NCBI RefSeq assembly: GCF_028858725.1
Contig: NC_084764.1
Span: 19,705,501-19,769,500, forward strand
Reading direction: 5' to 3'
From: Colius striatus
Lineage: Eukaryota; Chordata; Aves; Coliiformes; Coliidae
DNA length: 64,000 bases
How positions within the stretch are numbered: position 1 is the first letter of the stretch; each line of letters starts with the position of its first letter. Made by a program: the position numbers and the translations under genes. Under the pieces are notes generated by a model, which was not told the DNA's origin, searched no databases, and saw only the letters and a list, made by a program, of their open reading frames with translations. Below, in pieces: positions 11,576 through 64,000 of the stretch.

Positions 11576-11681
11576 CGATGAGGACGCGCAGGTGCTTAAG
11601 GCGAGTAAGCGGGTCCTTGCGAGTGTCCAGCACCTTCTGCGTGGATTTCCGCACGTCCCCGTGCGGCTTCTTGGAGAACAT
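11576..11681 (-). CDS. RALGAPA1: RALGAPA1 exon 1, coding part (Ral GTPase-activating protein catalytic subunit alpha-1)
   Basis: The minus-strand frame from the ATG at 11681 gives 35 residues beginning [20 protein letters not shown], which I recognise as the N-terminus of the RALGAPA1 (GARNL1/TULIP1) family. The exon ends one base into codon 36 at a consensus donor, G|GTGAGG (intron starts at 11575). The protein is the catalytic subunit that, with RALGAPB, stimulates GTP hydrolysis on RalA and RalB; its GAP domain is at the far C-terminus, outside this window. The frame stays open upstream to 11843 because of GC content, so the start rests on family similarity; G at -3 is favourable. BRMS1L lies divergently to the right, as in other vertebrates. 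Confidence 0.93.
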
Positions 11682-15899: not shown

Positions 15900-16758
15900 T
15901 CTAAGTTTTGTTTCCTTAACACACTAGGACTACGTAAGCCATTCTCAAAGAACAGAAGGGATATATGGCCTATCATGATGAGAGACTTTCATACACATGG
16001 AACTTATTTTCAACCGATGTAAGCATTACTAATTCCTGTCCAGTGCTGCCAGAGAATTTTGACTTCTGCTGTGCAAAGTCACCTCCAATTCACAATGTTT
16101 GAGTTCTAATGTAAGCACTAGAACCCATATCTGATATGAAAGAGGTTTTGAAATGTGATTACACTGATACAGTGGCAGTTAGAACAACTTCTCTTTTAAC
16201 CAAAAGTGCTCAGTCTCAAACATTGAGATGTTTTTGTTTTCTTCCCTGACTTATGGAACAGTTTTGCAACATTGACAAACCCACAAAAGAACTTCCAGAA
16301 GAAAAAAGCCCTGCAGAAACTCTGGAGCCTGTCAGCCTCTGTCAGGGGAGAGGCAATTTGGCACAGATTATTCCCTTTTTTATCAAAAGAAAAATTTTGC
16401 TCCCAATCTCTCTCATTATCTCACCTGCAGGTGTGACCAGAGTCTGTTAGAAGTAATTTCTCTTTGAGGTTATTTTGATTAGTAGCTTTAAGCTTACTTT
16501 ACACAATTTGCATCATATACCAGAATATTTTGCCTAAGTAATATGTAAATTGAGGGAGGAATATGATCCAGTAGCCTCCAAACATAGCTAGTAGTTTGCA
16601 CAGTTACTGCTACTCAAACTTCCTGCTGACCTTGTCCTGAAGGGAAAACAGTCTTTTTGGTGTTCTTGTGACTGATCTCCTAGTATTGCATGTTGAAATA
16701 TAAGGTGAAAAATCATACTTAATTTGATAGTGCATCCAGTGTATCAGCGTATAGTAAT

Positions 16759-17613
16759 GGCTGATTCCCCAGAAGGCTGTGCTGCCATTCAGCATTGGCA
16801 TTCTGAGTTGGGCAGAGAGGAACCTCATGAGGTTCAACAAGGACAAGTGCAGAGTCCTGCATCTGGGAAGGAACCACCCCATGCACCAGTACAGGCTGGG
16901 GGTCAAACTGCTGGAGAGCAGCTCTGCAGAGAGAGACCTGGGAGCCCTGGTTGATAATAAGCTAACTATGAGCCAGCAATGTGCCCTTGTGGCCAAGAAG
17001 GCCAGTGGCATTCTCAGATGCATCAAGAAGAGTGTGGCCAGCAGGTTGAGGGAGGTTCGGTTCCCCCTTTACTCTGCCCTGGTGAGGCCTCATCTGGAGT
17101 CCTGTGTCCAGTTCTGGGCTCCGCAGCCCAGGAGGGACAGGGAAGTGCTGGAGAGAGTCCAGTGCAGGGCCACCAAGATGATCAGGGGACTGGAACGTCT
17201 TTCATATGAGGAAAGGCTGCAGGAATTGGGGCTGGTTAGTCTAGAGAAGAGACTGCAGGGGGCATCTCATTAATATTTACAAGTTTCTAAATGGTGAATG
17301 TCAGGAGGTTTGGACATCCCTTTTTTTCTGTTGTAGCTAGTGACAGGACAAGGGGTAACAGAAGGAAGCTGGAACACAAAAAGTTCCACTTAAACATAAG
17401 AAAGAAACTATTTTACTTTGAAGCTGAAGGAGCCCTGGCACAGGCTGCCCAAGGAGGGTGTGGAGGCTGCTTCTTTGGAGGTCTTCAAAACCCACCTGGA
17501 TATGTTCCTGTGTGACCTGATCTAGGCTGACCTGCTCCTGCAGTGGGGTTGGACTAGATGATCTCTAAAGGTCCTTTCCAACCCCTTCCATTCTATGACT
17601 CTGTGATTCTATG
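16759..17613 (+). mobile_element. CR1 LINE, 5'-truncated, C-terminal ORF2 and 3' end
   Basis: It begins inside ORF2 just after the catalytic motif ([12 protein letters not shown] region). A mostly open frame runs from 16779 to 17273 with the usual [39 protein letters not shown] and [14 protein letters not shown] segments. It is then frameshifted near 17265 and ends in three octamers (ATTCTATG, ACTCTGTG, ATTCTATG) at 17590-17613. RT core and endonuclease are missing, so it cannot move by itself. Confidence 0.95.
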
Positions 17614-19935: not shown

Positions 19936-21029
19936 AGAGGCCCAATAAAGTGCTCGGGGAAAGTGAAGGCAGGAGAGGGTAACATTCCTTCAGCTAGTAC
20001 AGCTGCCTGCTGCTGCAGATGTATGAAAGGGCTCCTTCCTGCGCCTGCTGCAGTTTTTAGAAATCATAGGCATTTCCTGTCATAGTTATTAAAAATGGCC
20101 ACGGGTGTGGAGAAAGCATGCCAGGTTCTGCTGAGTCCTTAGTTGGCCACAAAGCCAGAGACAACAAAAACAGATGTTTGTGCAGTTAAGAACTTGATGT
20201 TCTGACTAATGTTTTTGTGTTCCTGGAGAAGAGGTGGCACACCTAAAACACTTTTAGTGAGGACACAGTGAAATTAGTTGCTTTGGCTATATAGAGAAAA
20301 CAAGTGGCTAACATACAGCAACAGTTATTGTGGGTGAGGTGGGCAGCTATTGCCTTAGAAGTCCATAGGGAAGCTCAGAAGTTATTAGCTGCTCCCTAGT
20401 CTAACCTGCATAATATCCTTCCAGACTGCAGAGAGAGAGACTAAATCTGAATCTCTCAATATGAAAATTTGTACTGCCAGGCAAACACAACCTTGACTTC
20501 ATTGGAGCAGCATATCATACCCCTGAGACACAGTTTCTCTGCTGCCCCTTTCCCTGGCCCAGATATCAGAAGTGAGCCTATATTTACTTGCAAGCAAGTT
20601 CACCTTCACTCCAAAGGTACTGCCTATGCTTACCTACAGGCCACAACTGTGTATTTCATCGCTTTTTAGGATCCCTGCCAGACTTTCCTGTGCATGAACA
20701 TGTCTTGAAGTGAAGCTAATCAGTCTTTCACGGCAAGGGGACTGTTGGGACAGCATACATCTATTCAGTACATCTTCTGGAGAACAGTTAACATCATCTG
20801 GCAAACAAAAAGTACTGATACTCAACAGCCAAAACCCCTATCCCAGCCCTGTGCAAATTGTATCATATACATTTAGTCTCTTTTCATGTCCACTCTCAAC
20901 GATTGCTATTAGCTATATGGAACCAAGTCAAGTTAGATTTCATTTAAAAGACTCTCACAGAATGAGAAACAGACAGAAAGAGATTCTGGCTGTCATCCAC
21001 AAGCACCTCTGTCCTCAGCCTACGGGAAA
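19936..21029. other. Spacer between the CpG cluster and the BRMS1L CpG island
   Basis: Moderate GC with no recognisable gene. The long plus frame that starts at 20710 runs unbroken through this spacer, the CpG island and BRMS1L exon 1, and reflects composition rather than a gene. Confidence 0.55.
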
Positions 21030-21579: not shown

Positions 21580-21715
21580 ATGCCAGTCCATTCCAGGGAG
21601 AAGAAGGAGAACAACCACGATGAGATGGAGGTGGACTACGGGGAGAACGAGGGAAGCAGCTCGGAGGAGGAGGAGACCGAGAGCTCGTCCGTGTCTGAGG
21701 AGGGGGACAGCTCAG
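21580..21715 (+). CDS. BRMS1L: BRMS1L exon 1 (residues 1-45 and first base of 46)
   Basis: Starts [20 protein letters not shown], the family N-terminus. The rest is a run of Glu and Ser, the acidic tail typical of BRMS1-family proteins. The ATG has A at -3. It ends TCAG|GTACTG. The frame stays open upstream with no stop, so the start is chosen by similarity. Confidence 0.95.
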
Positions 21716-27700: not shown

Positions 27701-30700
27701 TAATATAAATTAAACAAAGTCTGTGGAAAGAATTTAATGTTAATTACTATTGCTGCATAAAAACATATAAAATAAGTTTCTGCAAAATTCTGCACTTTGT
27801 AGGTGTCGTGGTTTAACTCTGGTGAGCAGCTAAGCACCATGCAGCCACTCGCCCACCTCTCTCCATAGTGGGATGGGGAGGAGCATTGAGGGGGAGGAGA
27901 AAGTAAAACTTGTAGGGTGAGATAAGGGCAGGATAATAACTAAAGTAAAATATAATAAATAAATAATAGTTGCAAAGGAATATAGTAAAAGAGAGAGAAA
28001 TAAAAGACAAGTGATGCCCAGTGCAGTTGTTCACTGACCAATGCCTGAGCAGCCATCTGCCCCGCCCCACCAACTCCCCCGTTTTTGTACTGGATATGAC
28101 ATCTACGGTATGGAATAGCCCGTTGCCTATTTTGGGTCAGCTGTCTCAGCCATCCTTCCTTCCAGCTTCTTGCCAGCAGAGCATGGGAAACTTGAGAGCT
28201 TCCCTTAGGATAAGCTCTAATTAACAACAACTAAACCATCAGTGCATTATCAAGATTATTCTCACACTAAATCCAAAACACAGCACTACCATAGAATGGT
28301 AGGGTTGGATGGGACCTTTAGAGATCAACTAGTCCAACCTCTGCAGAAGCAGATCAACCTAGATCAGGTCGCATAAGAACATGTCCAGGTGGGTCTTGGA
28401 AGACCTCCAAGGAAGGAGACTCCACAACCCCTCTGGGCAGCCTGTGCCAGGGCTCCCTCACCTGAACAGTGAAATAGTTTTTCTTATATTTAAGTGGAAC
28501 TTTTTGTGTTCCAGCTTCATCCTATTACCACTTGTCCTGTTGATAGATACAATAGAAAAAAGGGATGTCCTAACCTCCTGACACCCACCCTTTAGATATT
28601 TGTAAATATTAATGACATCCTCCCTCAGTCTTCTCTTTTCTAGACTAAACAGCCCCAGTTCCTGCAGCCTTTCCTCATATGGAAGATGTTCCAGTCCCCT
28701 GATCATCTTAGTGGCCCTGTGCTAGACTCTCTCCAGAAGTGCCCTGTACCTCTTGAGCTGGAGAGCCCAGAACTGGACACAGGACTCCAGATGAGGCCTC
28801 ACCAGGGCAGAGTAGAGAGGGAGCAGAACCTCCCTCAACCTGCTGGCCACTGTACTGGCTTCTGAGAAGAAAATTAACTATTCCAGCTGAAATCAGGACA
28901 GCAGATTGGAAAATGTTTCATTAGAAATGGAGTAATTTTAAATGGTCATTAGGTTGAACTACAGATATTTCTACATGAATATTTAATCTTCAAAGAACTC
29001 TCCAAATTGTACAGGTTGAAACATGGTTTCAAAACCAAGTGTTTCCATTTTTTTTTTTTTAAGGCTATTAATAATGCAGAACCTTGAATTTTTTATGACA
29101 AATGTAACATTGAACTGTGCTTGCTTTCCAGGTATTGCTTTTGCTCATAGTCACTCAGGATACACTTGATACACAGTGCTGGCTAACAACCCTTATTGCT
29201 CTATTGTGCTTGTAGTCTGGTATGATATACAGTGTTTAGTTTTTCTGTTTCATTCTTAGGTACACTTTGCTTTACTAGCCATAAAATTTAACCTCTTGGA
29301 GTCTTACAGTGATGTTATTTCTTCTTTTGAGGAAGAAAAGGTGTTGTTTATGGGATTTCTTCTATAATTAGATTTAAGTTTCTTACTTTGTAGCTTATAT
29401 GGCAAGCAGTTTCTCATATTCTGCTATAAGGTAATATAATGGATAATCTTCTCATGTCTAAAATTCAGGCTTGCTTCAAATTCATTAGAAGCAAAATATG
29501 CAGTTTATTTGGTTATACATTAGATCATTTGAAACAAATTACCTTTTTTTTATTCTTAGAAATGGATGATGAGGACTGTGAAAGAAGAAGAATGGAGTGC
29601 TTAGATGAAATGTCCAATCTTGAAAAGCAATTTACAGATCTTAAAGATCAGTAAGTATTTTAATTTTTTAAGTGGCTCATGTGAGGTTGCATTCCATGAG
29701 AATATTGTGTGCAGCTGGTGTTTCTTGTCTTTCATATATGTGGATGCTACTTCTGGAGAAGTGTAAGGATTGGATATTTTGAAATTACTTGCTCTAGAAT
29801 ACTTTTATTTCTTTGTTTACTGTTTTGCTTTAATAATTATTTTGAAGTGTTGTTGCATCAAAATTGATACCAATTAAAGATTCTTGTGATTACTGCGAAC
29901 TGGATACCAATACTAAAAAGGATGTAAATACTCTCTGTTGGTAGTTTGTCATAATATCTATAAGAGTAGTAAAGACCTAGTAAGTAAAAGTGATGATATT
30001 AATAGCCACAGTTAGTGAAAAGTCAATCTCGTTTGTATTAGAGCCAGTCTTTTGTATGTAGTTTAAGATGACTTTTTTCCACATGTATCCAGACAAGCTA
30101 GATACATCTGTTCCAATTTAAATAGGTGGTAAGTTGGCAACTAACTTAATCAGTTGCCTGTCAAGTCAAACTTTGAGGAGACATTATTTATTCTTGGGCA
30201 TGTATTTTAATTGCAAATCTAGTCAGTTGTCATTACATTTCAGATGCATATTTATATTGTGAGATAATTCTTTATATTACAGAACTGAGACATACAACTT
30301 GCTTTACCTAACAGGACACTGTGAGGTCTAATAGGGTCTGGAAAGAATTTCCCAACAAGCAGTGTCTAGAGAAGACTGTTTGTCCTGCTCTTCTTTTTGG
30401 GATGAGCATAAAGCAACTTGGGAAATGGAAGCAACTCTTCCATCAAGTCCTACTCTTCCATCTGTTGGACAGCTTGGAAAACTGGCAGCATTTTTTGGAA
30501 ACAAACATTTAAGGAGTGAATATGAAGAAAAGTGGTTTTGGGAGGAAGGAAACAAGTATTTTTTGATTTTTAGGGATTGTGAATGGTGTTTGGGAGGTTG
30601 TAAGGCTGTGATGTATGAGGAGGAAAGCATTGTGTAGATAAACATGTAAAAGAATGAGATAAACCAGATTTACAGTGGTTGATAGCAGTTATCCATTTTA

Positions 30701-33700
30701 GGCAAGTCATTATTTGAAAGTACCAAATAAACAATTCTAGTCCATCAGGTCTTGTATGGTACCAATTGTTGGCAGCACCCAGTCCATAACTGCTTGCTCT
30801 GATGTAGCTGGAACTCGGTACTTTGTAATCAAATGTCACGTGCACTGCATAGCCATACTTATGTTCTAGCTAAATAATTCTATAGCTCTGTGTTAACCAC
30901 TGTTGTGCATAGCATACTCATCAAGGTTTGAACCCAGCAAATTGGGTTTGGATCAGCTGTGGGCTATATCAGTTAAGTTGCATGGATAAGTTGCATGTAT
31001 CACTAACAGATTGTGCATAAGAAGAGGGGAGCGATCACTCACTGTTGCTTGGTTAGGTACATGTGCTTGAACTATGGAGCTGTCATCACAGTAAAATTAA
31101 CAGGCTGATGAAAAATGGACAGTAAATATTTGTCAAGAAGATCTTGATGTATCAATGTATACATGAGCTTTCTCCTGTAATTCATTACTTAACCTACGCA
31201 CTTTAAACAAGTAAAAAAGCACCGTCCCTATCCCAAACATATCTGTAATATCTGTGTAAACAGAGACAACAAAGATATGTTTACCTGTGTAAACAGCTAG
31301 CATCTGATATGTTCATAACACCTATAACAGAGTTGGTACATGTTTACCTTCTTTCTACAGCTTTTGATTGTGCCATGCAAGGTTAAAAATTGAAACAGGT
31401 AAAGCTGCTTATATTGATTCTGCCATTGAACACTTTTCCAGATATCAAAGACTGGAGCTTTATTGTGATTTAAATATATTTAATTGATATCACATTAAAT
31501 TATTCAAAAAAGCAAGCAAGTTTCTTCCTTGTCTACCAGGAAATATCAGCTTTTATAGAAGGAATGAATTTTAAATAAAATAAAAATATTTTAAATACAC
31601 TTTCTTTTGGCAGGAGTGGAAGCTGTCAGTCACAATTTTTTCCATGATATTTGTGGTGGTATATAATATGTGGATTTTCACAGGAGCTGAAGTAAGGGTT
31701 GCTTCAATAGGAGTCTGCCTTTCGTTTTGCCTTTATTTATGGTAGAGTGGGAGCAGATACGTAAACATGCAAGCAAATGGGCTTTTCCACCCACAAAATG
31801 TGTATCTTTCTCTCCTATGATGTAAGGCATATTTGGTGTAGCACCTTTTCCTGTCTTCTCCTGTGTTGATTCCTACTCCATCTTAATTATACTAATGGCT
31901 ATGCAATTTTCTTCTTCTTTCTTAGAGATGGAGGTGCATTTCATTTTATCTTTACTTTTTCTGCACTTCTGATTGTCTTCATGTGTTTTCCAGAAGGGCT
32001 TAAAAGACATGAGGAATAATGTTAAAAATGAAAATATGTATCGGAAAATTCAATGGTAACAAATCTTTACTTCAGTGGATGTTCCGTAACATTAACAGAG
32101 GGATCCAGAATATTTCTTTTAAAAATGTTTCTTCTGATTAATTTTTTAAAAAATATATTCTATTTATTTTAAGACTGTACAAAGAAAGATTAAGCCAAGT
32201 GGATGCAAAACTGCAAGAGGTCATAGCTGGAAAAGCACCTGAATATTTAGAACCATTGGCAGCTTTACAAGAAAACATGCAAATCCGAACCAAGGTAGCA
32301 GGTAGGCATATAGAATGAGTGTTGCTGTTTCAACGATGTAAACTTTCTGTGCATTTTAAGGTCAATCTTCTTTTTTCTTTACAATTGTTAAAGGAATGTG
32401 TTTTGAACTTAGAAGTACTATGGCATAGTTTTAAATGCAAAACATTTTTTAAATCAAAATGAGTAGGTTGCTTATCTTGTTGCACAAGTTGCCTGATATC
32501 ACACTAAAAATACGCTTTGCTTTATATTTCACTTCATGACTGGCTGTGTAGTAAGCAGAGAATTATTGAATTAAAAACAGTAATAATTTTTATTAGTCAT
32601 AAGATTTAGGATCGAGTCTGTACATTGGTCACTGTTGAAATGACCAATGTAGGTGCTATCTCATGAACTGCTTACTATGTCATCATAGATTATCATGGTT
32701 TTCCTGTTCTTCTAGTCTGTGTTTCTTCTACTCTTCTGCTCTCATCCTGCTGTTCAATCCAGGGAAGGAGGAAAACCCTTGACACCAGCAACTTCTATCT
32801 AAGCTCCTTTTAATTATTAAAATTAGTGTTTAGATGGGCTTTTATGCTTCTAGCAGAAGCGGTCAAGAACTCTTATCTTCTTCTGGGAAACAACCGTATA
32901 GTCATTTTGATGATATTATAGGAAGACAAAGTTCTGTACTTTTCTGTTGTACATTCATTTCATGTTACAACTTTACTCCTTTAGGAGTAATTCCCGTGTC
33001 TATGGGTTACCTAATACAGGCTGTCAGAGAGGCAAAAGGCAGAGAGTCATGATCTCACTAGCCAGGGAACCTATGCCAGTGTCTTTTTTAAAAAATTCAG
33101 AAGAATGGTGCAGGCAAACTGGAAAGTGGCAAGCCTGCTTAGACTTTTTGTAGTACTAGTGCTGTTTCAGTGCTACTCAGTATTTCTTCATTTGTACTTT
33201 GACTTCAGGCTATGAAGAGAAATTGAAATCTTTTTCTCAGCTGGTGACTCAGAATTTGTGGATATTAGGATAGCCCAAAATTACTTGATTAGTCCTATGT
33301 AGCCCATTTGGACTTCACAGAAGGTTTACAGGTCAACTTACAGAAGGTTTGATACAAAAGCAATATTAGTCCAGGCTTTTTATTTTCAGTTTTAAATGTG
33401 GCTGACTGTCAGTGCTTTCATGTGGGTGGGTATGGGTAGGCAGAATATTACACATTCTCCTGATTTGTCTTCAGCAGCACCAAAAAAACATGTTCCAATC
33501 TAAAAAGAGCCCAGGGTATAAAGTACAAAATTTCCCTGAATGTGAGATTAGGAATCAGGAGACTTTTTTTTTTTTCCCCCCTTTTTGTCCTCAACTGAAT
33601 GAGACTGATAAAATTATTTCACAGAAAGCATGAAACAATGGAACAGGCTCTTTTGTTCTTGGTGTTTGAGAGCCTTAACGGAAGTGGGTAGAAGCAGGAC

Positions 33701-36700
33701 TTGTGCTCCAGCAAATAACTCCTAAGAACCTGCTTGTTCATGAGAGAGGAGAGGACGGAATGAGGAAAAAAAAGTTTAGCTAAACATAGTATAGGGGTCT
33801 ATGGATATGATTACATCTGTGGTAGAAAAGACACTCTGCTCTCTAAAGGCATGGAGCACTATACACACCAAATATGAATCTTGACTAATTCAGCAAGTCA
33901 GAAATACAACTGTTTCTTTTAGAAGTATTCATACCTATACTGCTTGATTTAAGGCACATAAGCAGTGATTATAAATTGGTACACCTAGATATGCCAGTCA
34001 GGCATAAATATTGAAAAAAAGAAAGAAAAGCAAGCCAGCAGGATTTAAGGTGTAAGAAAAGAACATTTTGAATTCTAGATCAAAAGTGACCTCACAGCAG
34101 AAAGATGATTGACACAATGCTTTGTTGTTTGTTTTTCAGAGAATTTGCCATTAGCAGTATTGTTCCTCTTGTACTGTATTAATTTATAGTCAAATGAATT
34201 CTTAGGGAAGTTGTTTTTCTGGGTTCTTCAGTTGCTGTACAGCACTGACATGTGTGCAAACTTAACTCCTCAAGATGGTAATGTGGAACAATTTAAGTAT
34301 TTTGTACTGAATGCATTGCATTATTAAATCAAGTTCTATCTAGACTTGCCAGGTATTGGATTTCAGATACCTCTCAGCTGTCTGTTTAGTGGCCACATTT
34401 TCAGAAATGTATAAGAAGTACTCCTAGCAGTCAGAAGCAGTATTGTTATATTGCAAGGTGGTGTTATTTCGTTACAAGAACGAAAGACAGTCTTGTTAAT
34501 TGATGTGATTTGTTTAGGCCATGCATTACAAAGTAAGCCTTATTTCAAATATTCATTTGGAAAGCTTATTCTTTCATTTAATTTTCTAGATATTTAAGAA
34601 CGCTTAAACAAAAAACCTAAAATTTCATGGATTTGAAAAGTGAGGCTATCCAGGATAATTTGATCAGAAATATGAAATAGACCTATTTTGTAAAGTTAGC
34701 ATGTCTGCTGGTGTAATTTGTTGACTAGTGGGGGGAAAAAGTTAAAATACCATTTATTTTTCCTCAGATCTTCAGAATTAATTATTACTTGTTCTTATTT
34801 TTAATCTGTAAAGCAGCTGGCTACTGCAAGTGCCTAACATAATATAGCAGTATTTTCCAGTATGTATGTGTTTTAGTTCTTGAAGGCGGTCGTAATTTAA
34901 GAGAATTCTGAAATTGAATATTAGCTAAGGAAAGTAACATTGCTGTAATTTGTATGATTACAGGTATCTATAGAGAGCTTTGTCTGGAATCTGTGAAGAA
35001 CAAGTATGAATGTGAAATTCAAGCCTCTCGACAGCATTGTGAGGTTGTGCGAGCTATTTTATATTGATAGCTAATCTCTTCTAACTTTACTGTGTGTCAG
35101 TGCATGTTTTTATTATTGCTCTTATTTGTTATTTAAATGCAATTGCTTTGTGATATTTAAGCCTATCCAAGAGGTTGTTCAAAGCATATAAAAATCGGCT
35201 TTGTGTTAATTTGGCTTTGTGTGTAAGTATAGTTAAGATATTTTTTTTTAACAGATAATTTCTTATTAATAGATTCCCACATTATTTTCTTTTACCTTTT
35301 TTGTAAAAAAATTGACAAGAACAGTAACTAAAGTTTATGATACAATTTTATCATAAAGCACCTTACATTTTAACTATAACAACAGTAATAGTAATCATGG
35401 TGATGATGGTGTCTTTTTAAATGCCTTGGACAGCTAGTGATACAGTTGTCATTTCAAAAGCAGTTACAGCAAAAATGTATTTCTCTCCTTGAACAAAAAC
35501 ACTCATGAGGTTCAACAAGGACAAGTGCAGAGTCCTGCATCTGGGAAGGAACAACCTCATGCACCAGTACAGACTGGGGGTCGAACTGCTGAAGAGCAGC
35601 TCTGCAGAGAGAGACCTGGGAGTCCTGATTGATAATAAACTAAACATGAGTGAGCAATGTGCCCTTGTGGCCAAGAAGGCCAATGGCATCCTGGGATGCA
35701 TTAAGAAGAGTGTGGCCAGCAGGTCAAGGGAGGTTCTGCTCCCTCTCTACTCTGCCCTGGTGAGGCCTCATCTGGAGTCCTGTGTCCAGTTCTGGGGTCC
35801 CTAGCTCAAGAGGTACAGGGAAGTGCTGGAGAGAGTCCAGCACAGGGCCACCAAGATGATCAAGGGACAGGAACATCTTTCATACGAGGAAAGGCTGCAG
35901 GAACTGGGGCTGTTTAGTCTAGAAAAGAGAAGACTGAGAGGGAATCTTATGAATATTTACAAATATCTAATGGTGGGTGTCAGGAGGTTGGGACATCCCT
36001 TTTTTCTATAGTAGCTATCAACAGGACAAGTGGTAATGGGATGAAGCTGGAACACAAAAAGTTCCACTTAAATATAAGAAAAAACTATTTCACTGTTCAG
36101 GTGAGGGAGCCCTGGCACAGGCTGCCCAGAGGGGTTGTGGAGTCTCCTTCCTTGGAGGTCTTCAAGACCCACCTGGACATGTTCCTGTATGACCTGATCT
36201 AGGTAGACCTGCTTCTGCAGAGGTTGGACTAGGTGATCTCTAGAGGTCCCATTCAACCCTACCCTTCTATGATTTCAATTTAAGCATCTAAATACTGAAT
36301 ACTGTAGTGGAAGTACTGAAGTACGTATATGTCCAGTGCTGTAATAGTGCTGCTTATATGCTGAGGTTTGTATCATAGCAGTCCTCAGCCCCCTGTTACT
36401 GGTGTTAAAGTTCTTTTCTTCTGAGTGGTTCACCATATTCCTGAAGTCCATAGCTCCTGCTATACCAATAAAGCAAGAGTGTACTTTAAAAAACATTCAG
36501 TTTTCTTGATGCCTCAGGAGAGAACAAGGTAGAATAAAGGACTTCTTATTACTGATGGTCTTCATTCCTGTGAATACTCCTGAGGTTGGATGGGATCTTA
36601 TAACACTTACAGGGTTTCTCATTTGTGATTAAGTGATTTACTTTGGTTATGTGTTATCCCTCTTTAAGGTGGTCCTTGTCTCTTGTTTTGCTGTTATTTG

Positions 36701-39700
36701 AATTCTTCAGAATTCAAATATTCACCATCCAATAAGAGTGTCTTGAGGGAAAAGCTCTTTAAAGTCGGTGGTGCTTCTTGTAGAATTGCTGTTCCACTGG
36801 AATATAACCATTCAGCAAGAATGCCTCTGATGCCTGTAACAGCTTTTCATACCTTATTTGTCACTGTTTTTTGCTTGAAGCAAAACAGATGTCTAAACAC
36901 AAACAACATTTCATTTAAAAATAGTCTTGGAGCAGATAACACTCATTTGACATTTCAGGTATATGTAAGACTCTTCCAGCTTTTCAGTTCCACTGGGCTA
37001 GGGTTTTTTTTATATAATTAGGGGTTGAAAAATATGAAAGGAGGTCTTTGGAAGTAAATACTTGGTACGTTGGTAACATTTTAGCGATTTAAATGTTGGT
37101 TAAATTGTTGGTTAACCATTTAAATGTTGGTAACATTTACCAAGTAAATACTTAGTAACATTTGGAAGTGCTGGATAGAGTCCAGCACAGGGCCACCAAG
37201 ATGATCAAGGGTATAGAACATCTTTCATACGAGGAAAGACTGCGGGAACTGGGGCTGTTTAGTCTGGAGAAGAGGAGACTGAGGGGAGATCTTATTAACA
37301 TTTACAAATATCTAAAGGATGGGTGTCAGGAGGTTGGGACATCCATTTTTTCTATAGTAGTTAGCAACAGGACAAGTGGTAATGGGATGAAGCTGGAACA
37401 CAAAATGTTCCATTTAAACATAAGAAAAAACTATTTCACCATGAGAGTGACGGAGCAGTGGCACAGGCTGCCCAGAGGGGTTGTGGAGTCTTCTTCCTTG
37501 GAGGTCTTCAAGACCTGCCTGGACATGTTCCTATGCGACCTGATCTAGGTGAACCTGCTTCGGCAGGTGCGTTGGACTCGATGATCTCTAAAGGTCCCTT
37601 CCAACCCTACCATTCTATGATTCTATGAAGTTGAAGGGAATGGTAAACATGACAGCCATTTAGTAGGACATGGGTTTTGTTTTCATCTATTCCTCAACTG
37701 TTTTGCTTCACTCTAGTATACTAGCTTGAATATTGGTAAAGTTAAGTTTCTGTCAGTATTTTATGCTCTGGTCAGGAGCAGTTGAAATGCAGACATCTGA
37801 CTTGTCTCTAGGGGCTACCATTTTGGCAGATGGTAGAAAATAGCTAGACACAGTGACTTCAGCTGCTTAAGCTCTTTTTTTCAGTAAGTCCAAGCCCTCT
37901 GTTTTTGTGAATTGTTAAGAGATGTTGCTCTGTGGAAATGAACTCTAAAATGTAATAATGATCTGTATTTCCTTCTTGTGTTTCAGGATCTGTGCAAGCT
38001 TATGAAAGAACAGTAAATTTATTTCCTTGAGATTTGGAACTCAGCTTAATTCCAAGTTATTGGTTTACAGAGTTTAGTGTTTTTTGATGCTGCCTTTAAA
38101 AAGTTAACTGATGTATATAGATACTGTGCAATTTTTATATCAGTCCTAAGTGGTGGGCTATAATTGAGAGCAATTTACTACAAAGTTGATTTTCTCATTC
38201 TGAAACACAGAGATAGAAGTGTAGACCACGCAAAATGCTATAGAAAGTTCATGTCAGAATATGTTTCTGTTTTTCTTTCTATATACAAAAGTGCTAATGA
38301 TGCCCTTGTCACTGAAGGCAGTATTAATCTGTTTCGATCAGATATGGCCTTTTAAAAGGATGAACTACCTAGCTTTTCTAAAGCAGTAGTTTAAAAGTGT
38401 TTCTCACAGCTTTAAGGTAATCAATTTTAAGTTTCATAACTATCTAGATTATTTTATGTGCTTGATAAATTCTTCAGTGTGAATGTATTTTGTCAGATCT
38501 GTGAAAACAGACAATTATAAATACTGTGGGTATAGCTGATAATTCTCTATAAATAACTGCAGGTTTATTAATATTAGCATCAGCTTAATGAAAAGCTTCC
38601 CATTAAAACATTAACTTTTCTCATTCATAATGAAAGATGGCATAGAGGTCACTGCTTTAGTTACCCATTGCGAATAAATCTTTGCTGTCCAAAAGGAAAA
38701 TACTGCAATTGTGTCAAAATGCAGTTATTTTGATGATCTAGCCTGCATGCTTTTTTATGCTAGATTATTCTTGGTACTTATACTTGGTAACTCTATTTAA
38801 ACTTATTTCCAAGTGAGCTTTAGGAGCAAGGATCTCATGCTGAAAAAGCAGATAAAGGGATGTGTCTTAAGCTTTATGGCTTCTGAAAAATTTTCACCTA
38901 AAGCTACTTTACTTCTCCTGGAGCTTTACATTATTGTTTTGTGTATTTAGATGGTGGAACTTAGTAGTGTAAAAATGTGTAATTTCTTGCTTTTTTAGAG
39001 TGAAAAGCTTCTGTTGTATGATACTGTACAAAGTGAACTAGAAGAGAAGATTAGAAGACTTGAAGAAGACAGACATAGCATTGACATTACCTCAGGTGGA
39101 TGGAAATTCAAAATTGTTGGGGTTTTGTTTGATTGATTGGTGTTGCTTTTTTTTTTCTTGAGTGATTTTTTGTTTTGGTTTTTTTTTAACCTTCTGGTAC
39201 CTATTGATTATGACTGTATACGTAGTATGTCTGGTGGCTGCAGGTTATCCAGTAGAATGCTATTCTGCTTTAGACTTTGGGCAGGAGGTTGAATTTAAGC
39301 TTAAAACAAGCTTTAGTCTAGTAATTGTCAATATTCCTTGTGCATTTAGAGGATATTAATCTATGACCCTATAATCACGTAACACTTTCGTTCTGTTTGG
39401 AAACAGCATCTCACCAGAAGATGTGTTATTTTTCATTTTTGGTCAATGTTTTCTCCTATAATAAGAGCTAAACATGTAAAGATTTCTGATTCTTGCATGT
39501 TCTTACCATGTCTTTTCAGAATTATGGAATGATGAGCTACAGTCAAGGAAGAAAAGGAAGGATCCATTTAGTCCAGATAAGAAGAAACCTGTTGTTGTTT
39601 CAGATATCCTTTTACTGAAATAATTGTTCTTTCTAGTATTGTTTTATAGTTAGTCTTATTAAATATGTCACTAATAACAAGTAAGTGATAATGCATTCTC

Positions 39701-42700
39701 AAAATTGTTTTTTGCATGGCAGGTGTTCTAATTCAGAATGGAGAAACCATGTTGACACTTCCCATTATGAAAGTTGAAGTTAAGATTCACTTTTTGAAAC
39801 TAATACTTAGATAAGATAATATTTCTAAAATTCGTCTTTTTAAATCTACAAAATAGAGGTACAAGGCAAATGCAGAAAAAGTTAGGCACTATATGAAGTA
39901 TAACTGGACTTGTGTAAATTTTCCTGTATAGCTTTCCTTCTCCCATTGAGACATCTTTACCTCAATTTATTTCTTAATTCCATAGACTTTAGAACCCTCT
40001 TTGCTTAAAAGTTTAAGATTTCAAGAGTAGAGACTGTTGAGATGTGGTATGTTTGGGGTTCCCGTAGAGTATGTATAATATGTAAGAATTTTGCATTGAT
40101 AATTTTTCATGGCCAAATGAACCTTTTAAGGTATAACATCTAAGAGACTGTATCATCCTTCTCCAGGTAAAGGAAGAGATTCCTTTGCACACCAAGCAGT
40201 CTCTCTACTCCTACCCCTAGCCTAAAATTTTTATAGGATAGAGATGTGATGGCTTAGAAATAGGCAAAATCATGGAGACTACCTAAATGAGACCAGTTTC
40301 TAAGTATTGACATTATATGGTATAAAGTCCAATTTTCATTGCTAAGCTGCTGAAAAAAAATCCTGCTACTTTGGCAAGGTTTTATAACATTAGGAGAAGG
40401 TAGGAAGGAAGCAGTTTCTTTAAAAACTGTCATTATTGGGATACTATCCTTCAGATCATCACAGATGGATGACTTGTCCTAATGACACCTGTTCTTTTAT
40501 TAGAATGCCTCATAAATTTGGTTTAGTAGAGATGTGTTTTAACTAGTGCTTAAAAGCCAGGGGGTATTAATCAATGCAGGTACAGGTGGCCTCATTAGTT
40601 TCACTCCTTTTAACAATTTAAGTGCCAGGTTGTATGAAAGTGCATTTTCTTTAGCTCTCTCTCTCCCCTTGTCTTTAGGAATACTGTGAAAATTATTTTT
40701 TTAAAGCTGATAGTGTAGATGCTGATTTGCAGTTGGATATTGATATGGCAGTGACATTTAGTTGTAATCTGTAGTATAATTTTTTGAACTGATAGGCATG
40801 GAATGGTATCACAATTGTTTCACTTATCCTCATCTTAAACTCTAGTAGTCCAAATACCTACATGTTATTACTTATATCTCTTAATTTTTAAAGTGTGCTT
40901 CTAGATTGCATGATGCAAAGATGCATTCGTTGTTGCTGAGCTTTCACTGCACATAGGTATTCTTTGTGTGAAAGATTGGCACAACAGAGCTACTAATATC
41001 CTTTTATAAATATTAGAGTATTTTTATTATTGCTGTTTAAAAGAGTTTTCCCTAACTTTTCCACGCCCCTATATAGTTTATATGTTACAAGACCTTGATA
41101 TACTTGAAGACTGGACAACAATAAGGAAGGTAAGATGAAAGGATAAATGCTGTGGGTTTTGTTTGGGTTTTTATCTAGTCCTTTTGCCTTTTAAAAATCT
41201 ATTCAGAGTTTTGATAATGTAAAAAAAAATTTACATATTTTTATTTCTTCAGTAGTCAGCTAATCATTCCAGTTCAAGCTATGTTATAGCTAGTTTTTCT
41301 GATTCTACCCAAATCATGCAGAGGAATCCAATAAATTATCGGAAGAGGTTATCTCTGAAATGGTTAGTCCATAATCCATGATAAAGTAAGCCTGAAACCT
41401 GTGTCAAGAGGATCTGCTTTCTCATGGTCTAGCATAATTGGATAGAAACTATGATAGAATAGTTTGGTAGGATTTTGTTATAAATTAGTATTTTTTTAGT
41501 ATGTCATATTTTATGTTGTCACATAATTAACAGTTTAATTTTTGAAGATTTCTATGCTTCAGCCTTTCCTTAGATAATTTTTAAAAATAAAGTGAAACAC
41601 TGTGTGTTTCCCAGATAAGAGAATCAAGATTTACAGAAAGAGAAATTTGTTTGATCAATACATGTGTTTGAAAAAATGAATTGAGTTTTTAAGTGCAGGA
41701 TGCCTTTTTCGGATCTTTGTCACGTTGTTAGAGTAACTTGCTGTAATGAAGTGCTATCTTTGCCTTGCACTTGCAGTCAGAAAATTTCGCCCAGTACCCT
41801 AATACTTCCAAGCTTATAGAACAGCAAACTACTTACGTGAATTAAAATACTTGTTTGGAAAGGACGTGCTGTCAGTTTCCATCCTCCTTTATACTTATAC
41901 ATGTTTCCTAAACAAGATGTAAAATGGGATGCCTATGTGAAAATTTGTCTGATTTTTCTCTTTGAGTTGCATCAGAGGAAGAGACACAAACTTCCCTCAG
42001 TTTCTTTGCTGTAGTGTAACGTTATTTTGAACAACAGAAACAAACCCATAATCTACTCAGGATTTTGTCTTTTCTGGAAATAATTTTAAAAAAAACCAAA
42101 AAGCAAGCAAGCAGATAACCCCAAGAAATTCCTAGAGGGTGTTTTTTTAAACCTACTTTAATACAGTATGTGATATAGAGTTCACATAAGAGAAAATTTG
42201 TGAGTTTGAGAGTATCATGTATAAATAAACCCAAAAGGTTCATGTAGCATTTTGTTTCTCAGAGTGACTTAATGTAATTTTGTATTTTTTTGCCAATTAC
42301 ATGACAGCCATTTGGATGCTTTAGTTAGAAACCTCCTGAGTCGTTTGAAATCAGAACTTGGTAAAGAAGGTGATTTTATTTAGTTAGCAAGTCACCATTG
42401 AGCACACTTTTAGATTTGTTCTGACTGTGAGTTTTGATGTAAATGCAAGTATCCTGAGCTATGTTGCAAATAACTTCACAATTAAAGCTGGCAGTAAAAA
42501 GAAAGACTATTCTTGCTGATTAACTTCATTTTCCTTTGTGTTTCAAGGCAATGGCTACACTGGGGCCACATAGAGTAAAGTCAGAACGTAAGTAAACATT
42601 ATCTGGTTCCACAAGACAGAACTTGCTGTGTGCAACGACGCAAACTGCATCTAGGCAGATGATATTTATTTTAGCCCTAGTACAGTGACGGAGGATGAGG

Positions 42701-45251
42701 TGAGGTAGCTGCAAGATGAGGCATTTGTCTTTGCCCTCCTTCAGGTGCTGATGCTTGTAGCTCAGTTGCTGTTAGTGTGTTGAAACCTGAATTCTAGAAC
42801 ATTATCGACAAGAATGTAGACTTCAATGACATCAACTAATATCAGCAAGCTATGCCAGTGTTTACACAAGATGAGGCAGGAAACTGAGACCGTCTGGACT
42901 TCAGGGCTACATCCTAAAAAATGCTCATGCTCACTGCAAGCTAAAACCCTAAAAAAAGTAGAGCTGTGGGAAAGGAGTGGTGGCTGGTGTTTGTCACTGG
43001 GGTGAGAAGCACATTAATGCTCAGTGAGGAGGAGAAGGGGGAAGAGGCAAGCGGGTGTGGTGCATTTCTTCAGCACGGTATTACTACTTGTGGTGATGTG
43101 CAGATGAAGAGGTTTCAGGTTCTGCCATTTAGAGTCTCTGTATTGGGTTAGTCAATTTGTGAAAATTCATGTCACAGATATGAAGGTTGTGGGAAAGAGC
43201 TTCTGAGAGACTACGTTTGCTAATGGAAAAAAAAGGTATTCTGTGTAAATAACTTGATTGCAAGTGCATTTAAATATCTGACTTCTGCTAAGCCAATATT
43301 AAATGACTTTTATTGCTTATTTTAGCACCTGTCAAGTTAGAAAAGCATCTACATAGTGCTAGATCTGAAGAAGGAAGACTCTATTATGACGGAGAGTGGT
43401 ATGGACGCGGACAGACCATATGCATTGATAAGAAAGATGAATGTCCTACAAGGTAAAGATTACTCAGTTTATGCTGCTCTGTATATTCATGTTAATAGAT
43501 ATGATGATGGTATTGAAGGATAAGGCTTACTGGGAAATACTGCTACTTCAGTAATGTTTATTAGTTCGACTTGGAAGGCAGACATTATCAAAGAAGGTTG
43601 AGTGCTGAACTTCTGAGAGAGGCTGTTAAGGCTGGACTTTACTGAGGGTAATGAGAAGTTTATCAAGTTAGGACCTCACTAACAACGTAAACTCTTACTT
43701 GTTTCTGAGTATCCTTTGAGGAAAGTTTTTTGAGTGTCTTGAGATTTTATTAATTGGATAATTTGATCTGTTGAGCCACTCAAAAATAATTATGGAAAAC
43801 CACTTTATACCGTTAAAGGTATGCATTGTTTTCAGTTGATTAATGCTCTGAAAGTCAAATGTTGGAACTTAAAAAATTGTATTTCCTTCTCTTAACAAAG
43901 ATTCTACCTGAATATGGTCTAATTGTTACAGTGCAAATTTAGTTGAATGTTTAAGAACTAAATGCAGTTTTTCTGCATGGATACCAATTGTAAATTCTAA
44001 AAGGTGCTTATATTTAAAACAATTTATGTGTCTTAACTTTTACTGAAAAAGGCTAGTCAGTCTAGAGCATGATGTTGATTAAATATGCACAACTACCCAG
44101 GAAAATTGACTTCAACTTCACATAGCAGTATTTTACTTCTTCCCTGTGTATGGTGAAGGGTAACAAGTTTTGCTGTTTTTCCAGGATAGGAACAGGAAGG
44201 TATTTTGGTAAACTATGTATTCTTTCTGAATTAAAAAAATTCTGAGTTAGTCTAGCAGAGCATAGCATTTGTACTGGGCAAAGAGATCTTAGTAACCAGG
44301 CAAAGAAGAAGGCAAAGGCTGGTGCTTAACAGGGTAATCGTATAGGGGAAGTTTCCCAGCCTTCCAAGATGTCAACAGCTTTAAAGGCTGAAGAGTTTTC
44401 TGGAGAGTGTTTTATCATACTCGGTATGTGACATATCTTTCTTCCATTAACTGTTTTAGTTGCTGATTTTGAGCCTTTTTTGTCATTAGTTCTAATTGAT
44501 TGGGGTTTTTTTTTCTTCTTTTCCTAGGGGATATGGGAAAGGGGTTGTGTTCACTGTTTTTATTAAGGTCTACCACAAGGATCATAAAAGTGGGATTCAT
44601 CGAAGAACGATTCAGTGAATCGGGCTTTAACTTTATTTCTTATGGTCTTGGTATAATGACTATCAGTTGAATCCTTTGTCTGCTTTAAGTCTTGGGCTTT
44701 GATCTGTTTAATTTTATTCCAAATTCTTTGTATTCAAAGTAATATCTGGATATGTTTTCCAGTTGATCTGGTTTTGGTTTTTGTTTTGTTTAACATGGGT
44801 AGTCTATTGTTGTGTTTTCATTGGATGACTTGTTCTTCTAAACAATTAAAATATTTGTACACATTAACAATTTTCTCACAGGAAAGGAAAACAGATAGAT
44901 GGCTGAAAAATTAAAGCCTTTGCTAAAGACACATGCAGTCACCAAAGAATTCTGTTACAACTATCTTTATGATGGAGCTAGTAATTTTTGGGCCTAGCAT
45001 TTAGAACTAATGCTTGTTTTCATTTACTGTATGGAAATACAGCTGCAAATTTGAGGTTGTTTATTAGCTTGCAAGGTTTCTAAACTTGTTTTTCTTCCCC
45101 TGACCCTTCTTCCCTCATTTTCCGTAGTGCCATAATTACAACTATTAACCATGATGAAGTTTGGTTTAAAAGACCGGATGGAAGCAAGTCCAAGCTGTAC
45201 ATTTCTCAGCTACAGAAAGGAAAATATTCAATAAAGCATAACCACAACTGA
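21580..45251 (+). CDS. BRMS1L: BRMS1L gene, ten coding exons (SIN3-HDAC corepressor subunit)
   Basis: Ten exons (21580-21715, 29560-29650, 32174-32301, 34964-35043, 38999-39095, 39520-39603, 41065-41129, 42548-42587, 43326-43452, 45128-45251) join in phase to 972 nt, 323 residues plus stop, which is the length I know for the family. The product is breast cancer metastasis suppressor 1-like. It is a nuclear SDS3/BRMS1-family subunit of SIN3-HDAC complexes that helps recruit HDAC1/2 to repress genes. Seen in the sequence: an acidic serine/glutamate-rich N-terminus (about 24-50), heptad-rich coiled coil in the Sds3-like region (about 54-175), a basic nuclear-localisation-like stretch (187-200), and a conserved C-terminus with EVWFKRPDG. 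All introns are GT-AG except intron 6, which is AT-AC. Three CR1 copies and one LTR lie in introns 1 and 4. Confidence 0.97.
24664..24698. repeat. CA microsatellite
   Basis: Mostly CA dinucleotides with a few substitutions, in BRMS1L intron 1. Confidence 0.85.
27508..27529. repeat. T22 homopolymer
   Basis: Uninterrupted T run, followed about 30 bp later by an A11 run (27560-27570). Confidence 0.95.
27804..28900 (-). mobile_element. Solo LTR (TGTCCTG...CGACA type), interrupted by a CR1
   Basis: The plus strand begins TGTCGTGGTTTAACTCTGG and ends GCTGAAATCAGGACA. I recognise this as the reverse complement of a widespread avian ERV LTR that starts TGTCCTGGTTTC and ends TAAACCACGACA. The LTR is split: 27804-28290 and 28853-28900 are its two parts (about 535 bp together), with a CR1 between them. 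The region of the TATA box is degraded. Flanks (GTAGG and GCAGA) give no convincing target duplication, so it is older than the LTR at 52846. Confidence 0.85.
28291..28852 (-). mobile_element. CR1 LINE 3' fragment nested in the LTR
   Basis: Reading the minus strand, it starts in the C-terminal ORF2 region (GGCCAGCAGGTTGAGGGAGG) and ends in the CR1 hairpin plus a single ATTCTAT unit. LTR sequence continues on both sides; TAC is present at both junctions (ACTACC before, TACTGG after), which would fit a very short target duplication. It lies antisense in BRMS1L intron 1. Confidence 0.93.
29560..29650 (+). CDS. BRMS1L: BRMS1L exon 2 (residues 46-76)
   Basis: Encodes [20 protein letters not shown] followed by an LEKQF-type heptad segment, the start of the Sds3-like coiled coil. 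Acceptor TTCTTAG|AA, donor GATCA|GTAAGT; both splice codons restore Glu and Gln. Confidence 0.97.
29651..32173 (+). other. BRMS1L: BRMS1L intron 2
   Basis: GT-AG intron of 2.5 kb with an AT-rich 3' end. Open frames near 30321-30645 show no similarity. No repeat or RNA gene is recognised. Confidence 0.85.
32174..32301 (+). CDS. BRMS1L: BRMS1L exon 3 (residues 77-118 and first base of 119)
   Basis: Encodes [20 protein letters not shown] and then [12 protein letters not shown], part of the Sds3-like domain and coiled coil that mediates dimerisation and SIN3 contact in this family. Acceptor TTTTAAG|A, donor GCAG|GTAGGC. Confidence 0.97.
32302..34963 (+). other. BRMS1L: BRMS1L intron 3
   Basis: GT-AG intron of 2.7 kb. 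A T/C-rich run sits at 33565-33587. No repeat or gene is recognised. Confidence 0.85.
34964..35043 (+). CDS. BRMS1L: BRMS1L exon 4 (residues 119-145)
   Basis: Encodes [20 protein letters not shown] and SRQHCE. Acceptor TTACAG|GT is strong. The donor that keeps the family frame is GAG|GTTGTG, a poor match after +2. A much better-looking GTGAGG lies 6 bases upstream but would break the frame with exon 5. Confidence 0.93.
35502..36273 (+). mobile_element. CR1 LINE, 3' third, in BRMS1L intron 4
   Basis: It starts abruptly at the [15 protein letters not shown] segment of ORF2, has the frame open to a stop near 35802, then continues in a second frame (35823-36011) to a CR1 3' UTR that ends ACCCTTCTATGATT. 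It is closely similar to the inverted copy at 28291-28852 over about 560 bp. Confidence 0.95.
37164..37628 (+). mobile_element. CR1 LINE 3' fragment, second copy in intron 4
   Basis: Begins GGAAGTGCTGGATAGAG. The frame 37162-37548 keeps the full CR1 ORF2 C-terminus, ending LDMFLCDLI. The 3' end has two perfect ATTCTATG octamers at about 37612-37627. Same subfamily as the neighbour at 35502. Confidence 0.95.
38999..39095 (+). CDS. BRMS1L: BRMS1L exon 5 (residues 146-177 and first base of 178)
   Basis: Encodes [20 protein letters not shown] and [12 protein letters not shown], charged heptads that finish the coiled-coil region. Acceptor TTTTTTAG|AG, donor TCAG|GTGGAT. Confidence 0.97.
39096..39519 (+). 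other. BRMS1L: BRMS1L intron 5
   Basis: Short GT-AG intron of 424 bp with a T/G-rich tract near 39118-39190. Confidence 0.9.
39520..39603 (+). CDS. BRMS1L: BRMS1L exon 6 (residues 178-205 and first base of 206)
   Basis: Encodes [20 protein letters not shown] then KKKPVVVS. The two basic clusters (about 187-191 and 198-200) look like a bipartite nuclear localisation signal. Acceptor TTTTCAG|AA. It ends TCAG directly before ATATCCTTTT, a U12 donor rather than GT. Confidence 0.95.
39604..41064 (+). other. BRMS1L: BRMS1L intron 6, U12-type AT-AC intron
   Basis: The 5' end ATATCCTTTT (39604-39613) is a perfect minor-spliceosome AT-AC donor. The 3' end has the branch-site-like TTCCCTAAC (41048-41056) with its branch A about 10 nt before the terminal AC (41063-41064), and no long pyrimidine tract. 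Only these boundaries restore the family sequence across the join (Gly-Pro-Tyr-Ile-Val-Tyr-Met). The interior holds no gene or repeat that I recognise. Confidence 0.93.
41065..41129 (+). CDS. BRMS1L: BRMS1L exon 7 (rest of 206, residues 207-227)
   Basis: Encodes [20 protein letters not shown] and K. PYIVYML is a strongly conserved Sds3-family block. The exon follows an AC acceptor and has a consensus donor AAG|GTAAGA. Confidence 0.95.
41130..42547 (+). other. BRMS1L: BRMS1L intron 7
   Basis: GT-AG intron of 1.4 kb. No gene or interspersed repeat is recognised. Confidence 0.85.
42548..42587 (+). CDS. BRMS1L: BRMS1L exon 8 (residues 228-240 and first base of 241)
   Basis: A 40-nt exon encoding [13 protein letters not shown]. 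Acceptor TTTCAAG|GCA, donor GAAC|GTAAGT. Small, but phase and similarity both require it. Confidence 0.93.
42588..43325 (+). other. BRMS1L: BRMS1L intron 8
   Basis: GT-AG intron of 738 bp. Nothing recognisable inside. Confidence 0.88.
43326..43452 (+). CDS. BRMS1L: BRMS1L exon 9 (rest of 241, residues 242-282, two bases of 283)
   Basis: Encodes [20 protein letters not shown], then [21 protein letters not shown], the conserved C-terminal region. The residue after EWY is Gly here. Acceptor TTTTAG|C, donor ACAAG|GTAAAG. Confidence 0.97.
43453..45127 (+). other. BRMS1L: BRMS1L intron 9
   Basis: GT-AG intron of 1.7 kb. No gene or interspersed repeat is recognised. Confidence 0.85.
45128..45251 (+). 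CDS. BRMS1L: BRMS1L exon 10, terminal coding part (residues 283-323)
   Basis: Encodes [20 protein letters not shown], then [20 protein letters not shown] and TGA at 45249-45251. Acceptor [20 protein letters not shown] and the [13 protein letters not shown] tail are hallmarks of the family. Confidence 0.97.
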
Positions 45252-62353: not shown

Positions 62354-64000
62354 GGTGACCCCACAGCAAAAGCTGAGGATACAGAGAAGGCCGAAGTACT
62401 GAATGCCTTCTTTGCTTCAGTCTTTACAGCCAAGGCTGACCCCCGGGAAGCCCGGTCCGGCAAGGATAACAGGATGGCCAGGACAGCAGAGGAGTTGCCC
62501 TGGGTGGAAGAGGAAGAGGTTAAAGACTTGTTGGCCAGCTTAAGGCTCATAAGTCAATGGGTCCTGATGGGATGCATCTTAGAGTGCTGAGGAAGCTGGC
62601 TGATGTGATTGCTAAGCCTCTCTCCATCATTTTTGAACACTCATGGAGGACGGGCAAGGTGCCTGAGGACTGGAGAAAGGCCAATGTCATGTCAGTCTTC
62701 AGAAAGGGCAGGAAGGACGACCCAGGAAACTACAGGCGGGTCAGCCTCACCTCTATCCCTGGAACAGTGGTGGAACAACTCATCCTGAATGTTATCACTG
62801 AACATATGAAGGATAAGATGGTTATCAGGGAGAGTCAACACGGCTTCACCAAGGGGAAATCCCGTTCGACCAACCTGAGATCCTTCTATGAGTGCATAAC
62901 TGGCTGGCTAGATGAGGGGAGAGCAGCGGATGTCATCTACCTTGACTTCAGCAAGGCTTTTGACACTGTCTCCCACAACATCCTCATCAGAAAGCTCAGG
63001 CAGTGTGGCTTGGATGAGTGGACAGTGAGGTGGATTGAGAGCTGGCTCAATGATAGAGCCCAGAGGGTGGTGATCAATAGCACAGAATGGAGTTGGAGTT
63101 CCATAGCGATTGATTCTGGGGCCAGTCTTGTTCAACATCTTCATAAACGACCTGGATGAGGGGACAGAGTGTACTCTCAGCAAGTTGGCTGATGACACCA
63201 AACTGGGAGGACTGGCTGATTCCCCAGAAGGCTGTGCTGCTATTCAGCGGGATCTCGACGGGCTTGAGAGTTGGGCAGAGAGGAATCTCATGAGGTTCAA
63301 CAAGGACAAGTGCAGAGTCCTGCACCTGGGAAGGAATAACCCCATGCACCAGTACAGGCTGGAGGTCGAACTGCTGAAGAGCAGCTCTATAGAGAGAGAC
63401 CTGGGAGCCCTGGTTGATAATAAACTAACCATGAGCCAGCAATGTGCCCTTGTGGCCAAGAAGGCCAATGGCATCCTGGGATGCATCAAGAAGAGTGTAG
63501 CCAGCAGGTCAAGGGAGGTTTTGCTCCCTCTCTACTCTGCCCTGGTGAGGCCTCATCTGGAGTCCTGTGTCCAGTTCTGGGCTCCCCAGCTCAAGAGGGA
63601 TAGGGAAGTGCTGGAGAGAGTACAGCACAGGGCCACCAAGATGATCAGGGCACTGGAGCATCTTTCATACGAGGAAAGGCTACAGGAACTGGGGCTGTTT
63701 AGTCTGGAGAAGAGGAGACTGAGGGGAGATCTTATTAACATTTATAAATATCTAAAGGGTGGGTGTCAGGAGGCTGGGAAATACCTTTTTTCTATAGTAG
63801 CTAGTAACAGGACAAGGGGTAATGGGATCAAGCTGGAACACAAAAAGTTCCACTTAAATATAAGAAAAAAATATTTCACTGATCCGGTGAGGGAGCCCTG
63901 GCACAGGCTGCCCAGAGGAGTTATGGAGTCTCCTTCCTTGGAGGTCTTCAAGACCTGCCTGGACATGTTCCTATGGGACTTAATCTAAGTGGACCTGCTT
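62354..64000 (+). mobile_element. CR1 LINE with most of the reverse transcriptase, leaves the window at the right edge
   Basis: It starts in ORF2 upstream of RT (TAKAEDTEKAEVLNAFFASVF), so the endonuclease part is missing. A frame covers 62557-63159 and carries the RT fingers and palm with YLDFSKAFDTVSHN (motif A, 62938-62980). Another covers 63110-63988 and has LADD (motif C, 63185-63196) and the full C-terminus ending LDMFLWDLI with a stop at 63986-63988. Two breaks disable it: a frameshift near 62540-62555, and a net loss of about 17 bp near 63095-63110, compared with the copy at 690, that removes motif B. The 3' UTR continues beyond the window. Confidence 0.96.

Follow-up and report, generated by a model that had tools for sequence, protein, structure and literature searches.

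A predicted U12-type AT-AC intron in the BRMS1L gene of Colius striatus and its counterparts in other vertebrates

The BRMS1L gene and the boundaries of intron 6

The window considered here, a stretch of 64,000 nucleotides (nt) from Colius striatus (NCBI RefSeq assembly GCF_028858725.1, contig NC_084764.1, positions 19,705,501 to 19,769,500 of the forward strand), contains a complete BRMS1L gene on the + strand, the sixth intron of which is the main subject of this report. The gene comprises 10 coding exons between positions 21580 and 45251 (Table 1), which together give 972 nt, or 323 codons and a stop, with no internal stops. The spliced 323-residue product is 99-100% identical (as rounded by the tool) to BRMS1L of Patagioenas fasciata monilis, Crocodylus porosus, and Porphyrio hochstetteri. 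It is 98-100% identical to the best bird and reptile BRMS1L entries among the best 120 of 1308 homologues, which places it within the BRMS1L family, and it includes an Sds3-like domain (Pfam PF08598, residues 60-180, E 1.6e-22). Introns 1 to 9 measure 7844, 2523, 2662, 3955, 424, 1461, 1418, 738, and 1675 nt, respectively. Eight of these nine introns have GT-AG ends, the exception being intron 6, a phase 1 intron with AT-AC ends.

Intron 6 begins with ATATCCTTTT and ends with TTCCCTAACTTTTCCAC. The last base of exon 6 is 39603 (...GTTTCAG), the terminal AC occupies 41063-41064, and exon 7 (GCCCCTATATAG) begins at 41065 with the second base of a glycine codon. Exon 7 is 65 nt long, and its skipping would therefore shift the reading frame. 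All last-exon bases from 39560 to 41089 were joined by script to all first-exon bases from 41000 to 41099, with introns of at least 29 nt, and within these ranges 39603/41065 was the sole pair to restore the BRMS1L family sequence, with AT and AC as the terminal dinucleotides of a real exon junction. Among 195 GT-AG or GC-AG pairs (donors after 39560-39699, acceptors before 40900-41128), 11 left the frame open, each with residues deleted or added, and none gave the family sequence. The initial annotation had assigned the intron to 39604..41064, coordinates that proved exact to the base, and had argued that exons 6 and 7 can be joined in frame and in agreement with the family only through an AT-AC boundary, which is correct within the ranges tested.

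The splice signals of the intron resemble those recognized by the minor spliceosome. The donor agrees with the U12 consensus ATATCCTT at all eight positions from +1 to +8, and the putative branch site, TCCCTAAC, agrees with the consensus TCCTTAAC at seven of eight (both consensus sequences from PMC2831892). The branch A at 41055 lies 9 nt from the last intron base at 41064. The initial description of a perfect U12 AT-AC donor, a near-consensus branch site, and a branch-to-acceptor distance of about 10 nt, within the U12 range, is borne out by these values. Taken by themselves the motifs are common in a stretch of this length. RTATCCTTT occurs three times in the 64-kilobase (kb) window versus 1.74 expected, which is not significant, and TTCCTTAAC with at most one mismatch occurs 23 times versus 23.8 expected, which is not above chance; raw motif counts, being at chance level, were dropped as proof of U12 type. 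At a junction fixed by homology, unlike in the 64 kb as a whole, the donor and branch motifs are significant. The first-order estimate for ATATCCTT at a given position is 2.2e-5, and TCCTTAAC with at most one mismatch, its A lying 8-20 nt upstream, accompanies 21 of 3183 AC positions (0.7%).

Intron-encoded residues in other vertebrates and the class of intron 6

Database BRMS1L proteins whose gene finders failed at the exon 6/7 junction and translated intron bases provide an independent test of the intron ends. A first search covered the best 120 of 1308 homologues and a search with a composite read-through query the best 120 of 196 matches, for a combined 189 distinct listed proteins. In the first search 101 proteins had a clean exon 6/7 junction, one of which, P0121, was assigned by eye, while 19 were wrong at this single junction, a practical effect in keeping with the initial warning that GT-AG gene finders misplace this boundary. 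Among the 189 listed proteins, 130 have the clean sequence VVVSGPYIVYM and 59 contain intron-encoded residues or other junction faults. Arg precedes PYIVYM in all 56 of the non-clean proteins that retain this motif; the other three are without it. Since the glycine codon is split after its first base, translation through an AG acceptor would give a residue with a G-initial codon, and Arg (CGN or AGR) in 56 of 56 proteins therefore indicates C or A, rather than G, as the final base of the intron. At the donor side, 32 non-clean listed proteins include a complete exon 6, followed in 21 by Asp (counted without assuming the donor residues), and all 21 continue with Ile-Leu (19) or Thr-Leu (2), as G-AT ATC CT encodes. 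Three further D-I-L cases with a variant exon end fall outside the 21 found by pattern. In 51 of 56 proteins Leu-Thr, Ile-Thr, or Phe-Leu-Asn, as expected from a translated (C)TTAAC branch site, starts four to six residues ahead of the Arg; elsewhere in these proteins the frequency is 325/15871 (2.0%). This signature is found in 26 of 30 distinct sequences and thus does not reflect one sequence counted repeatedly.

The proteins that read through the intron come from mammals, five birds (two Anser, Eurystomus, Tyto, and Furnarius), teleosts (e.g., Caranx, Cyprinus, and Oncorhynchus), sturgeon, paddlefish, and coelacanth. A 17-residue stretch of the Furnarius figulus read-through is identical to the same-frame translation of the window, and the intron end is therefore alike at the protein level. 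The initial annotation had asked whether the same intron is AT-AC in mammals and fish, and the answer is affirmative: matching translated intron ends are found in mammals, birds, ray-finned fish, and coelacanth, so that the intron type is conserved at the orthologous position, as seen at the protein level and in species with faulty predictions. Fourteen listed proteins derive from contigs shorter than 3 kb (sources 'lgn' or 'jgi'). Twelve of these have a clean junction and are most simply explained as spliced transcripts, given contigs of less than 3 kb versus a gene span of about 24 kb here. Viral and prokaryote collections, scanned with proteins and junction patterns, yielded no vertebrate DNA; the window itself gives one match to the acceptor pattern.

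Donor, branch site, spacing, and cross-species intron ends all support the class originally proposed, and intron 6 of this bird BRMS1L is almost certainly a U12-type AT-AC intron of the minor class, passed down from an early vertebrate. Several points nonetheless weigh against this assignment. The branch site is one position off consensus, and we infer the splicing of intron 6 in this bird from its sequence. Two donor read-throughs have Thr for Ile, both in wild-sheep or hybrid-sheep records, and in 11 of the 32 proteins the residue after the complete exon 6 is Ala, Val, Gly, or Ser; in these 11 the exon looks as if attached to an AG that lies upstream of the true acceptor, and they would then be uninformative on the donor. 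The branch-site signature is absent from five of the 56 acceptor read-throughs, and two of the 14 short-contig proteins (P0262 and P0300) read through the intron. The composite query held the expected residues, so that these are overrepresented in its tallies; the first search by itself gave Arg in 18 of 18 and five D(I/T)L. The cross-species evidence consists of proteins, in which codons rather than bases are read. Finally, read-through is visible only where prediction has failed. A switch to GT-AG would leave a species with a clean junction, for which reason the 130 clean proteins are no evidence of AT-AC ends.

Other readings of the junction have been weighed against the same evidence. The major spliceosome might use nearby GT-AG sites to make a slightly different protein, as in several annotations, and the 11 pairs that keep the frame open (e.g., 39596/41046), together with similar products annotated in Anser (VVYSLTFPRP) and Tyto, are consistent with such use. 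Each GT-AG form, however, loses conserved exon residues, gains intron-encoded ones, or both, and the added residues vary by species, whereas the clean junction recurs in the 130 of 189 listed proteins, the 12 from short contigs included. Failures of this kind are the expected output of a gene finder limited to GT-AG, and genuine use of these sites is extremely unlikely. The terminal dinucleotides alone would also permit a major-class (U2-type) AT-AC intron of the kind found in sodium channel genes, but these U2-type introns have G at +5 (PMC2831892). Intron 6 has C at this position, within a full ATATCCTT, and the presence of a U12-like branch site at a distance of 9 nt from the acceptor also counts against a U2-type intron, the probability of which is practically negligible.

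A further reading has the main minor donor, at 39604, compete with a second one, an internal decoy at 40996, for a shared branch site and AC. Use of the decoy would remove a 69-nt nested intron and leave 1392 intron bases in the mRNA. The decoy is a second perfect ATATCCTTTT within the intron, for which a first-order model expects 0.004 copies, but this estimate is post hoc and another ATATCCTT occurs by chance at 20413. Furthermore, the N-I-L-L of the window corresponds to N-I-F-L in Furnarius figulus, in which the C at +6 is therefore lost. Competition between the two sites is very unlikely, and the internal copy was judged probably a chance occurrence rather than a functional donor, mainly because Furnarius is without it. 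It is similarly improbable that the copy binds U11 and slows splicing, or diverts it into the nested AT-AC intron, so as to tune BRMS1L in this bird lineage. In the U11-48K and U11/U12-65K genes the splicing enhancer consists of donor-like repeats. Binding of U11 to this conserved enhancer has been described for both mRNAs (PMC5473595). Nothing in the present analysis supports an enhancer-type role for the copy at 40996.

The minor-spliceosome pathway is well established, and splicing of the U12-type intron proposed here may be outlined in its terms. U11 would recognize ATATCCTTTT, and U12 would pair with TTCCCTAAC, bulging the A at 41055. U6atac, U4atac, and U5 would then join, and the AC 9 bases downstream would serve as the 3' splice site. 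Joining of GTTTCAG to GCCCCTATA would rebuild VVVSG-PYIVYM, with the adjoining introns left to the major spliceosome. Intron 6 may also be a rate-limiting control point in the bird, by extension from HeLa data on limiting U6atac.

Known minor introns and the paralogue BRMS1

Human BRMS1L has been named as a minor-intron gene in work that took its minor introns from U12DB (PMC3728624). BRMS1L is suppressed in HeLa cells, where its splicing and expression rise with anisomycin, which was read as consistent with limiting U6atac (PMC3728624). The human gene is orthologous to that of the window, and the intron ends translated in mammalian read-throughs at this junction match those of the window; the passage on the gene in PMC3728624, however, states neither the number nor the subtype of the intron, and the regulation was shown in HeLa cells rather than in birds. 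Intron 6 resembles other vertebrate AT-AC U12 introns (PMC2831892) in its ATATCCTT donor, TCCTTAAC-like branch site, and AC at a short distance, and differs in having C for T at one branch position (TTCCCTAAC). Vertebrate U12 introns are highly conserved (PMC2831892), and 94% of human minor introns have been quoted as conserved in chicken (PMC10639083). Among the papers listed in text searches for BRMS1L or BRMS1 together with U12 or minor-spliceosome terms, none beyond PMC3728624 is evidently concerned with this intron; three others contain both BRMS1L and U12. The initial annotation had stressed the rarity of AT-AC introns in vertebrates. AT-AC ends are indeed rare, but the implied novelty was overstated, as the feature is ancient and human BRMS1L is a known minor-intron gene. 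Intron 6 is a known, ordinary feature seen in another species and common to mammals and fish.

The case nevertheless has some general bearing. A rare splice type called from the sequence alone was validated, and read-through errors in predicted proteins preserve traces of intron ends that can be exploited for species without available DNA. According to PMC8280824, AT-AC ends occur in 24% of minor introns, and the A-type minor introns, which are mostly AT-AC, depend on CENATAC, with 92% of them affected by its depletion in HeLa cells. Because A-type minor introns respond to this depletion, BRMS1L would be a candidate readout for CENATAC in birds.

The initial annotation had also raised the question of whether the corresponding intron of the paralogue BRMS1 is AT-AC. 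The comparison covered the best 120 of 132 BRMS1-type matches, and GPYIVYM is present in 95 of these 120 proteins. Eight proteins (P0234, P0239, P0129, P0132, P0156, P0174, P0205, and P0229), from Varanus, Caretta, and six mammals, bear on the subtype. Varanus BRMS1 reads KKPPLVSDILLS (PLVSDILLS across the exon end), like an ATATCCT donor, and Caretta BRMS1 reads LTCPSRPYIVYM, in which Arg before PYIVYM corresponds to an intron ending in C or A. Five mammalian predictions read F-L-D-P..., as would a TTCCTTGAC-like branch site, followed by an Arg codon in a shifted frame. This codon takes its first two bases from the end of the intron and its third from the start of the exon, and the intron in these five mammals therefore ends in AG or CG. 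Chlorocebus BRMS1 reads SLTPITGPYIVYM in frame, giving G as the last intron base. The end of the mammalian BRMS1 intron is thus most likely AG. A cat isoform (P0201) has G-M-S-P after the exon, which could represent a major-class GTATGAG donor or another exon.

The BRMS1 intron is like intron 6 of BRMS1L in interrupting the same codon and, judged by the Varanus donor and the Caretta acceptor, in its AT-AC-like ends, and differs in the AG end and TTCCTTGAC-like branch site of six mammals. An AT-AC intron in BRMS1 is accordingly favored by the residues of two reptiles and not by the mammals. The simplest history would be a U12 intron that predates the split of BRMS1 and BRMS1L, with AT-AC ends kept both in BRMS1L and in the BRMS1 of reptiles, and a shift to an AG end in the BRMS1 of mammals. 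On the thin evidence of one reptile protein for each side of the intron, this suggests a change from AT-AC to xT-AG in the mammalian BRMS1 lineage. Switching between U12 subtypes is a described process (PMC2831892), and BRMS1 may be a case of it.

Other features of the locus

Table 1. Positions of the BRMS1L exons and of the intron 6 signals in the window
Feature	Positions	Strand	Remarks
BRMS1L coding exon 1, start codon to donor	21580..21715	+	product 98-100% identical to top bird and reptile BRMS1L
Exon 2	29560..29650	+	flanks GT-AG
Exon 3	32174..32301	+	flanks GT-AG
Exon 4	34964..35043	+	GT donor weak, GAG/GTTGTG
Exon 5	38999..39095	+	flanks GT-AG
Exon 6 (...KKKPVVVS + G), phase 1 end	39520..39603	+	
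Intron 6, predicted AT-AC minor (U12-type), 1461 nt	39604..41064	+	junction test and cross-species read-through
Predicted U12-type 5' splice site ATATCCTTTT	39604..39613	+	
Second perfect ATATCCTTTT within intron 6	40996..41005	+	first base to intron end 69 nt; not kept in Furnarius
Predicted U12-type branch site TTCCCTAAC	41048..41056	+	branch A taken as 41055 (its second A)
AC 3' splice site	41063..41064	+	
Exon 7, 65 nt	41065..41129	+	
Exon 8	42548..42587	+	flanks GT-AG
Exon 9	43326..43452	+	flanks GT-AG
Exon 10, to stop codon	45128..45251	+	

Elsewhere in BRMS1L, the donor of intron 4 at 35044-35053 (GAG followed by GTTGTGCGAG) is a poor fit to the usual major-class donor. Three cetacean predictions have extra residues at the exon 4/5 junction in an alignment of 24 proteins. 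Mammalian isoforms with seven additional residues, at one point suspected to arise at exon 6/7, were placed by the same alignment between exons 8 and 9 and are unrelated to intron 6. No PDB structure was found to span the exon 6/7 junction: a 50-residue query gave no matches, and the full protein gave 10, none with a best stretch covering residue 206, the junction glycine. An Rfam scan of the window gave no match at gathering thresholds.

Outside BRMS1L, the - strand has at 11577-11681 a start codon (at 11681), an open stretch, and then a GT donor, in divergent orientation to BRMS1L; we take this to resemble coding exon 1 of RALGAPA1. On the + strand, open stretches at 565-1728, 16758-17512, 35493-36199, 37159-37545, and 62524-63985 are similar to fragments of LINE reverse transcriptase, presumably of the CR1 type, in keeping with a bird genome.

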